Source: Sphingobacteriales bacterium (GTDB taxonomy: Bacteria; Bacteroidota; Bacteroidia; Chitinophagales; Chitinophagaceae). Taken from it: a stretch of 64,000 nt of DNA. The stretch spans positions 1-64,000 of the forward strand of contig JAPLEF010000054.1 in NCBI GenBank assembly GCA_026391525.1, in the 5' to 3' direction. The translations under genes were made by a program, and so were the position numbers. Numbering within the stretch: position 1 is the stretch's first letter; each line of letters starts with the position of its first letter. This document shows positions 8,129-11,049 of the stretch, in pieces. A model generated the notes under the pieces. It had not been told where the DNA came from. It worked only from the letters and a program-made list of their open reading frames with translations, and searched no databases.

Positions 8129-9451
8129 ATGAAAAGAGTTTTCCCCCTTATTACCATTTTTATCTTACTCTCTTTACTGGGCCTGATCTTTTTTCAGATG
8201 TTATGGTTAAGGGATGCCAAGGGAATCAAGGAAAAACAAATCAACGATAATATCTTCATCGCTACTACTTCTGCAGGAAAGAAATTGATGGAAGACAAAA
8301 CAGGCTTTTTGTCGATGAATAAGAAATCGGATCTGCTTTTTCCGAATGATAAATTAAAGCTTGAAATCCTTCGCCCTTCTGTATTACAGCGTTTCACCAA
8401 AGATGAAATATGGCTGATCATCCGCAATGCGCTCGACAACAATTTTTTGAAAGGCATTCCTTTTGAATTTGCCGTTACCGATAACAGCTTAACCGGCGAG
8501 CAGGTTGAAACGGAACAGTTTTTTAAGTATTTCATCGACTCAGCAGGTACGGTTCGGGTTATCCATCCGCTTGAACCTCCTCCGGGCAGTAATTTGGAAA
8601 ATCTTGCAAAGGAAGAGTACCTGATGGTGATTGTACCCCACCAAAGAGCTATAGTTTTTAGGGAAATATCATTGTTCATTGGGGGCAGTATTTTATTTAC
8701 CATAATTATCATTACTGCCTTTTTTATCAGCATCCGTGCGCTGATGCGGCAGAAGAAGCTGAGTGAAATTAAGTCTGATTTCATCAACAACATGACACAC
8801 GAATTTAAAACGCCACTGGCTACGATATCACTGGCTGTTGATGCACTTCGGAATGAAAAGGTGATGGCTGATAAAGAGAAGAGTAGCTATTTTACAGGCA
8901 TCATCAAAGAAGAAAACAAGCGGATGAACAAGCAGGTGGAAACCATTTTGCAGGCCGCTTTGCTGGATAAACAGGAGGTTCAACTCAATCTAAAGGTATT
9001 GTCTGCCCATGCGATGATCGATAGCGCATTAAAAAATATCGCCCTCCCTCTGGCTGAAAAAAATGGCCAGGTTGAAGTAAAACTGGAAGCTACCAAAGAT
9101 ATGATCCTGGCTGATGAGGTTCATTTTACAAGCCTGATCAATAACCTGCTGGATAATGCAGTAAAATATTCACGTGAAATGGGGCTATTGATTAAAGTAA
9201 CTACCAGCAATGCCGGCAACCAGTTGCGAATCCGTATTGAAGACAACGGCATAGGCATGAGTAAGGAAACACTTAGCAGGATTTTTGAAAAATTTTATCG
9301 GGCACATACCGGTAACCTTCACAATGTAAAGGGGTTTGGTCTTGGCCTGAGTTATGTAAAAACCATGGTGGAAGCACACAAAGGTAGTATCAAGCCCGAA
9401 AGTACCCTAGGGAAAGGCACCATTTTTACCATACTGATGCCCTTGGTTTAA
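8129..9451 (+). CDS. Membrane sensor histidine kinase (HisKA + HATPase_c)
   Basis: FINNMTHEFKTPLATISLAVDAL H-box, NNLLDNAVKYS N-box, GLGLSYVKTMVEAHKGSI G-box; two TM segments. Confidence 0.95.
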   Translation: MKRVFPLITIFILLSLLGLIFFQMLWLRDAKGIKEKQINDNIFIATTSAGKKLMEDKTGFLSMNKKSDLLFPNDKLKLEILRPSVLQRFTKDEIWLIIRNALDNNFLKGIPFEFAVTDNSLTGEQVETEQFFKYFIDSAGTVRVIHPLEPPPGSNLENLAKEEYLMVIVPHQRAIVFREISLFIGGSILFTIIIITAFFISIRALMRQKKLSEIKSDFINNMTHEFKTPLATISLAVDALRNEKVMADKEKSSYFTGIIKEENKRMNKQVETILQAALLDKQEVQLNLKVLSAHAMIDSALKNIALPLAEKNGQVEVKLEATKDMILADEVHFTSLINNLLDNAVKYSREMGLLIKVTTSNAGNQLRIRIEDNGIGMSKETLSRIFEKFYRAHTGNLHNVKGFGLGLSYVKTMVEAHKGSIKPESTLGKGTIFTILMPLV

Positions 9452-9556
9452 TTTACTTTACTTATCCACCCTAATCACATCTAATATGTCCAGTTTTGGC
9501 ATAAAAGCTATACTTACAGGCAGTATTCAGTCTGTGGATAAAAATCTTTTTTTAAA

Positions 9557-9596
9557 AATGTGTCATAAAGTGGGAAAATGTGTTAATTTGTGTTCA
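9557..9596 (+). promoter_or_regulatory. Putative MraZ operator: four phased 10-bp GTG repeats
   Basis: AATGTGTCAT|AAAGTGGGAA|AATGTGTTAA|TTTGTGTTCA, GTG at positions 4-6 of each unit, ending 30 bp upstream of the mraZ ATG. Confidence 0.65.
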
Positions 9597-9626
9597 TAAT
9601 ACTTAAAAACAACCCAAATCCCATTC

Positions 9627-10085
9627 ATGACAGGCTTCATCGGCGAGTTTGAATCCACCATTGATGCAAAAGGAAGATTCCTGCTTCCTTCTGGTTTCAA
9701 GAAGCAATTGCCCGAAGGGGACAATGCCCTGTTTGTGTTGAACCGTGGATTTGAAAAGTGCCTTACCCTTTATCCGCTGCAAAGTTGGAAGCCTATTTTC
9801 AAGGAAATCAGCCAGTTAAACGATTTCGACCCCAAAGTTAGGTCGTTCCGCCGTTATTTTTTAAACGGAGCTACTCAAATAGAACTGGATAGTGCAGGGA
9901 GGTTATTGTTACCTAAAAATTTGATGGAATATGCCGGGCTGGATAAAGATATCATCCTGGCTTCTTCTCTCAATAAGATAGAAATCTGGGATAAAGAAAA
10001 ATACCAACAGTTCTTTGATGCTATCTCACCGGAAGCCTTTAGCGAGCTGGCAAGTGAAGTGATGCAGAAAAAAGAGGATAAATAG
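9627..10085 (+). CDS. mraZ: Division/cell wall cluster transcriptional repressor MraZ
   Basis: GEFESTIDAKGRFLLPSGFKKQLP and second AbrB-like repeat LDSAGRLLLPKNLMEYAGLDKDIILASSLNKIEIWDKEKY. Confidence 0.97.
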   Translation: MTGFIGEFESTIDAKGRFLLPSGFKKQLPEGDNALFVLNRGFEKCLTLYPLQSWKPIFKEISQLNDFDPKVRSFRRYFLNGATQIELDSAGRLLLPKNLMEYAGLDKDIILASSLNKIEIWDKEKYQQFFDAISPEAFSELASEVMQKKEDK

Positions 10086-10095
10086 AATTTCCGGT

Positions 10096-11049
10096 ATGGA
10101 TCATTCAGCAGACATACCTGATGAGCAGCATGGTTCAACACCAGATGCTGATTATCATGTTCCGGTTATGCTTGAGGAATGCATTGCAGCACTCGAAATC
10201 AAACCAGACGGGATATATGTGGATTGCACATTCGGAGGAGGCGGGCATAGCAGGGGCATCCTGAAAAAACTTGGTCCGGATGGTAAATTGATTGTTTTCG
10301 ACCAGGATGCTGCAGCAAAGATCAATTTACCAGATGATGGCCGTATGGTTTTTGTACAACAGAATTTTCGTCACCTGAGGAAATTCCTAAGGGTGAACAA
10401 AGTTTTGGCGGTAGATGGGATTTTAGCAGATCTCGGCGTTTCCAGCCATCAGTTCGATGAACCGGAGCGTGGTTTTTCTACCCGTTTTGAAGCGAAGCTT
10501 GATATGCGCATGGATTCCAGGCAGCAACTAACGGCAGCGCATATACTAAATACTTATGACGCCGCAGCCTTGCACAAGCTTTTTGAAAGATATGGGGAAG
10601 TTACGAATGCAAAAACACTGGCTAACAGGATTGTAACCATTCGTAAAACCAATCCGATCGAAACGGTAAATCAGTTCAGGCAAGCGGTATATGATGAGGT
10701 GAAAGGCAATCCTCACAAGTATTTCGCTCAGGTTTTTCAGGCTTTGCGTATAGAAGTGAACGACGAAATAGGATCACTCAAAGAGATGCTAGCACAGGTA
10801 GCTGAAGTGCTGAAATCAGGTGGTAGGGTGGCTATCATCAGTTTTCATTCATTGGAAGACAGGATAGTGAAGCAGTTTTTCCGCCATGGTGGAGATGAAG
10901 AAGACAAGGATGATCTTTTTGGAAACAAACCGGAAACGGAATTGATCATCATCAATAAAAAACCAATTGTGGCTTCGGCAGAGGAAATGAAACAGAACAG
11001 CCGCTCAAGGAGTGCGAAACTCCGGATTGCAGCAAAGAAAACATTTTAG
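10096..11049 (+). CDS. rsmH: 16S rRNA (cytosine(1402)-N(4))-methyltransferase
   Basis: YHVPVMLEECIAAL, YVDCTFGGGGHSRGIL, GILADLGVSSHQFDEPERGFS. Confidence 0.97.
   Translation: MDHSADIPDEQHGSTPDADYHVPVMLEECIAALEIKPDGIYVDCTFGGGGHSRGILKKLGPDGKLIVFDQDAAAKINLPDDGRMVFVQQNFRHLRKFLRVNKVLAVDGILADLGVSSHQFDEPERGFSTRFEAKLDMRMDSRQQLTAAHILNTYDAAALHKLFERYGEVTNAKTLANRIVTIRKTNPIETVNQFRQAVYDEVKGNPHKYFAQVFQALRIEVNDEIGSLKEMLAQVAEVLKSGGRVAIISFHSLEDRIVKQFFRHGGDEEDKDDLFGNKPETELIIINKKPIVASAEEMKQNSRSRSAKLRIAAKKTF

Follow-up and report, generated by a model that had tools for sequence, protein, structure and literature searches.

MraZ boxes have been described in E. coli, where they lie at the promoter Pmra (Eraso et al., 2014, as cited in PMC8475190), and in Mollicutes, where direct AAAGTG[T/G] repeats occupy the mraZ promoter and MraZ represses its cluster (Fisunov et al., 2016, as cited in the same paper). 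The mraZ promoter of M. genitalium is given there as the sole chromosomal locus of AAAGTG[T/G] repeats (PMC8475190). As a positive control, the E. coli genome (NC_000913) was read as well, and three GTGGG units at 10-bp spacing were found upstream of mraZ (GTGGGAAATTGTGGGGCAAAGTGGGA). A second regulator to be considered is DnaA. A 2021 review (PMC8203912) lists its binding to the ftsL promoter region in B. subtilis and to ftsZ in Caulobacter, and adds that DnaA has not been shown to have a major effect on when cytokinesis takes place.

In this study, the window, that is, the whole analysed stretch of 64,000 nt, was found to carry four contiguous GTG-containing decamers directly upstream of mraZ, which heads the dcw cluster (Table 1). 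Direct reading of 9557–9596 placed the GTG starts at 9560, 9570, 9580, and 9590, in direct repeats spaced 10 bp apart, with 30 bases left between 9596 and the mraZ ATG (9627). The first-pass annotation had described four 10-bp GTG units ending 30 bp before this ATG, with neighbouring decamers lacking GTG, and both statements proved exact on re-reading, with one addition, an out-of-phase GTG at 9534 (CTGTGGATAAA) that it did not mention and that is part of a separate conserved element. The pattern of four phased GTGs has a single match in the window when one mismatch is permitted (0.12 expected) and a single match in the whole 2.85-Mb assembly. When the 120-bp stretch preceding mraZ was dinucleotide-shuffled 100,000 times, no shuffle contained four phased GTGs and 20 contained three.

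Similar to the E. coli operator, the array consists of 10-bp-spaced units upstream of mraZ. Unit 2 fits both known unit spellings, TGGGAN5 (E. coli) and AAAGTG[T/G] (Mollicutes), as had been claimed, and its GTGGGA is the E. coli unit itself. However, the E. coli units read GTGGG, whereas units 1, 3, and 4 of the window read GTGT, keeping GTG[T] with the rest of the published spellings absent. The E. coli units also lie downstream of a likely −10 element, while those of the window run through a likely −7 element, and no DnaA box was seen beside the E. coli units, whereas the window has a putative one. The Mollicutes operator resembles the present one in its direct repeats at the mraZ promoter and its AAAGTG core, GTGT units being found here too, but it belongs to another phylum and promoter type, and the unit spelling is less uniform in the window.

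Table 1. Features at and around the mraZ promoter in the window.
Feature	Sequence	Position	Strand	Remarks
Sensor histidine kinase		8129..9451	+	Upstream neighbour, outside the operator
Putative DnaA box	TTATCCACA (TGTGGATAA on +)	9533..9541	−	Starts 37 bp upstream of the unit-2 GTG
MraZ-box unit 1	AATGTGTCAT	9557..9566	+	Lineage-variable; GTG in 33/80 named relatives
MraZ-box unit 2	AAAGTGGGAA	9567..9576	+	Canonical; GTGGGA near-invariant in the family and identical to the E. coli MraZ-box unit
MraZ-box unit 3	AATGTGTTAA	9577..9586	+	Abuts the putative −7 element; G/T/G 95–100% conserved in the family
Putative −7 element	TTAATTTG	9583..9590	+	Mostly TTATTTTG in relatives; departs from TAnnTTTG at one position; placed by analogy with the class-wide register
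MraZ-box unit 4	TTTGTGTTCA	9587..9596	+	TTTG common to the putative −7 element; GTG 98–100% conserved in the family, partly imposed by the alignment rule
mraZ		9627..10085	+	Presumed regulator; two MraZ domains; DxxxR motifs D13-R17 and D88-R92
mraW/rsmH		10096..11049	+	Second gene of the dcw cluster

The mraZ product contains PF02381 in two stretches, as a cognate two-domain MraZ does, and its closest solved sequences are four MraZ (1n0e, 9qlr, 9qlg, and 9sx6, by sequence match only); on these two matches the MraZ of the window genome is intact. Both domains hold the DxxxR motif, which we take to be characteristic of MraZ. The remainder of the dcw cluster follows mraW, and 175 bp separate the histidine kinase gene from mraZ. 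The dnaA gene was located on the same contig (G000:C35:68145-69533), ~4 kb beyond the window end and about 58 kb from mraZ, and the dnaA–mraZ distance in another genome (G178) is likewise about 66 kb.

The mraZ upstream regions compared came from 80 genomes within the family, 69 from the other families of its class, and 30 from classes elsewhere in the phylum. Period-10 GTG runs of at least two units were detected in 78/80, 62/69, and 27/30 genomes, respectively, and runs of at least three units in 75/80, 49/69, and 9/30, against a dinucleotide-shuffle background of 2–5% for at least two units and at most 0.2% for at least three. GTG runs at the control periods of 7, 8, 9, 11, 12, and 13 were almost nil, and the opposite strand of these regions gave nothing notable for phased GTG. 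The phased GTGs are thus retained before mraZ from genus to phylum, and the conservation check set by the first-pass annotation was passed strongly. In a set of 80 named records, which were fetched separately yet overlap the first family set and are Chitinophagaceae, many labelled Ferruginibacter, three or four units were present in 79. Since genus mates are related, such counts are not independent events, and the raw counts carry less weight than the recurrence of the repeat in many tens of families.

Among 98 aligned sequences, the Chitinophagaceae core GTGGGAAAAAGTGTTATTTTGTG was near-invariant, some of its columns being imposed by the alignment rule. The unit consensus in other Bacteroidia, AAAGTGG[TG]AAA, fits the published MraZ-box spelling and equals that of the E. 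coli box. Because the GTG of unit 1 is present in just a minority of the named relatives (Table 1), the conserved array comprises units 2–4; the description as four units therefore holds for close relatives, while beyond them the three-unit core is what is conserved.

The specificity of the repeat to mraZ was evaluated in 90 genomes of the genus, in most of which the three-unit pattern marked the mraZ promoter, with about nine other sites in total, one of them a second exact copy in a genome with a listed contamination of 8% (G021). The reversed control pattern gave 19 matches in the same genomes, more than the approximately nine matches outside mraZ. By this count, MraZ in the genus seems to control a single operator, the situation recorded for M. 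genitalium (PMC8475190).

The relation of the array to the promoter differed among lineages. In 38 of 62 cases from other Bacteroidia, TAnnTTT[AG] begins 15–16 bp past the last GTG; a 45-bp control window upstream contained the element in 4/62. The nearest equivalent in Chitinophagaceae is TTATTTTG or TTAATTTG, located 13 bp after the unit-2 GTG, which puts unit 2 approximately at the last-unit place of other families, with units 3 and 4 overlying the putative −7 element. The family's HU promoters, inspected by eye, show the usual TAnnTTTG, preceded at about 20 bp by TTTG. Near the operator, no perfect TAnnTTTG was found, no −33 element was evident at the mraZ promoter, and a sigma-70 promoter and terminator scan of 9400–9700 returned nothing. 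The TAnnTTTG-like sequence TTAATTTG given at 9583–9590 in the first-pass annotation lies there as stated, and its proposed overlap with units 3 and 4 is plausible by the class-wide register, although one consensus position is missed. In the other classes of the phylum, the GTG units lie downstream of TTGACT/TTGACA promoters; at several of these loci (L153, L154, L175, L176, and others), GTGGG units follow a TTGACA/TTGACT + TACATT promoter, which puts the operator after the −10 element, the E. coli arrangement.

The sequence of the GTG array, its phasing, its conservation, and its near-uniqueness are direct observations. We conclude with high, though incomplete, confidence that 9557–9596 is an MraZ operator, and the earlier proposal of such an operator is supported both by the conserved phasing and by the E. 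coli positive control. MraZ binding, repression, and the transcription start site are predictions. In the proposed mechanism, an MraZ oligomer would touch one GTG-centred unit per helical turn along 9557–9596, staying on a single face of the helix. The array would cover the core promoter, whose putative −7 element TTAATTTG falls partly between and partly within units 3 and 4, and MraZ, on accumulating, would therefore shut off its own operon (negative autoregulation). Against the operator reading stand the imperfect −7 element and the absence of an evident −33 element, the fact that unit 2 alone matches the published unit spellings, the possibility that the GT of unit 4 is conserved for the promoter, and the relatedness of sequences from one genus. 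An operator of this kind is already known, and the open-access literature, to which the search was confined, yielded no report of an MraZ operator in Bacteroidota, in line with the first-pass annotation.

Other readings of the array were weighed against this one. If the conserved block were promoter only, a −7 element with AT-rich flanks of which the phased GTG is a by-product, the near-invariance of TTATTTTG in the family would be accounted for, and the GT of unit 4 fits the TTTGT extension of the family's HU promoters; however, the final G of unit 4 is not explained by an HU-type TTTGT. In addition, the array lies wholly upstream of TAnnTTT[AG] in other families (by 15–16 bp) and downstream of TTGACT/TTGACA in other classes, so the phasing persists while the position changes. 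That the unit phase is kept as its place relative to the promoter shifts favours a repeat-reading protein over promoter conservation, and the promoter-only reading is considered very unlikely. A regulator other than MraZ could be that protein, as units 3 and 4 depart from GTGG[GT]A and MraZ binding is here a prediction, but in the genus the repeat goes with mraZ and scarcely occurs at other loci, and its unit is common to the MraZ boxes of E. coli and Mollicutes, which leaves this idea with only a slim chance. A fortuitous arrangement of GTGs in an AT-rich spacer has the shortness of the unit in its favour and nothing beyond, while the shuffles contained no four-unit array and conservation extends from genus to phylum; the probability of chance is practically negligible, and this origin was rejected on the conservation.

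Besides the MraZ operator, a second conserved block, TGTGGAWAAA, emerged 37 bp upstream when family sequences were aligned on unit 2, with 88–99% conservation per position and A/T at W. TGTGNAWAA occurred at exactly the −37 register in 66 of the 80 named relatives and within a few bases of it in 70, while other offsets were almost empty. The variants at this register were TGTGGATAA (38), TGTGGAAAA (20), TGTGCATAA (4), TGTGTATAA (3), and TGTGAAAAA (1). Their variation is confined to the two open positions of the DnaA-box consensus TTWTNCACA, and in the raw columns these two were the least conserved of the nine. The minus strand of the window at this place matches TTWTNCACA perfectly, and the word, TTATCCACA, is a classical DnaA box (PMC8203912). 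It is not over-represented globally in its own genome, with 16 matches vs. 20 for the reversed word. In one relative (L281, G097:C1:2214022-2214040), a degenerate promoter-proximal box, CGTGGAAAA, was observed together with a tandem TTATCCACAGTTATTCACA farther upstream of mraZ.

Identical words were recovered at putative replication origins of the family. Upstream of nadA, TTWTCCACA was found 32 times in 24 family genomes, as against 0.56 expected from shuffles and 2 within the coding region of nadA, and seven DnaA boxes were located within 250 bp upstream of nadA in genome G111. These clusters (L182, L300–L324) mark the probable chromosomal origin in Chitinophagaceae, which would not lie beside dnaA; the dnaA flanks, when searched as origins, contained no box clusters. 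A search for clustered TTWTHMACA triples in 42 genomes gave few matches, one of them clear (G111). The box upstream of mraZ thus shares its word with the origin of its lineage, itself placed by inference from the family nadA clusters. The nadA of the window genome lies 125 bp from a contig end, so its own origin is unreadable and the comparison rests on family genomes. In two Chitinophagaceae (L209 and L213), TTTTCAACA was seen in a T-rich stretch about 150 bp upstream of dnaA, a possible autoregulatory site.

Outside Chitinophagaceae, other spellings stand in place of the DnaA box. Many families carry TTWTYAACA on the plus strand 10–13 bp before the first GTG, and a few have the canonical TTTTCCACA; in the other classes sampled, an upstream element of the TTWTYAACA type is rare. 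About a dozen of the 25 class genomes also have TTWTYAACA as a spaced pair before hup, and in two cases such a pair precedes purH. These TTATTAACA/TTATCAACA pairs (L248, L222, L250, L251, L227, L253, L255, L257, L260, L262, and L238, near position 1500; L220 and L252) lie, in the case of hup (HU), ~100 bp upstream of the gene, all in non-Chitinophagaceae Bacteroidia. In the HU upstream regions of Chitinophagaceae, TTWTCCACA was not consistently found in place of TTWTYAACA. The idea that TTWTYAACA is simply the DnaA box of other Bacteroidia was weakened by genome G491, which has a canonical origin-like cluster despite TTATTAACA at mraZ. Based on the hup and purH pairs and on G491, the element seen across the class may be read by a regulator other than DnaA; the TTATTAACA/TTATCAACA word, which also precedes the mraZ operator in those genomes, appears to be where a conserved but unnamed regulator binds. 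Replacement of the class-wide element with a perfect DnaA box may be a peculiarity of Chitinophagaceae.

For the second element only, the alternative takes TGTGGATAA as an MraZ box detached from the array, or else as a site for an unnamed activator, instead of a DnaA box. The similarity of GTGGAAAAA to GTGGTAAAAA speaks for a detached box, but the element is off-phase, with 36 bp between the GTGs, has A after GTGG instead of the G/T of MraZ units, and requires T before GTG. An unnamed regulator is suggested by the TTWTYAACA at a comparable place in other Bacteroidia, paired before hup and purH too, and by G491, in which TTATTAACA at mraZ coexists with canonical TTATCCACA in the origin-like cluster. 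Against both stand TGTGCATAA, TGTGTATAA, and TGTGGAAAA, which differ only where TTWTNCACA permits, and the identical words crowding the nadA-adjacent putative origin. This alternative has an appreciable chance, though we lean against it. As for a DnaA box, the −37 register in 66 of 80 relatives and the identical words in putative origins make a DnaA input to the division cluster plausible, with DnaA occupancy and the sign of its effect presumptive. Positioned about 55–60 bp upstream of the probable start site, a box there may allow DnaA to modulate the mraZ promoter. That DnaA at the fixed box beside the operator directly times or scales dcw transcription with replication initiation in Chitinophagaceae, jointly with MraZ feedback, is a tentative proposal whose prospects fall slightly short of even.

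Similar to ftsL of B. subtilis and ftsZ of Caulobacter, a DnaA-box-like site here lies upstream of division genes; unlike those cases, it keeps one fixed register beside an MraZ operator throughout the family and is predicted from sequence. The array represents a specific, testable dcw operator across Bacteroidota, in which the GTG core and 10-bp phase of the MraZ unit persist, whether the unit precedes, overlies, or follows the −10/−7 element. In Chitinophagaceae, the fixed distance of the putative DnaA box may reflect a direct coupling of replication to the division genes, and the pairing of this box with the operator would make the long-standing question of whether replication initiation acts directly on division-gene transcription testable at one promoter.
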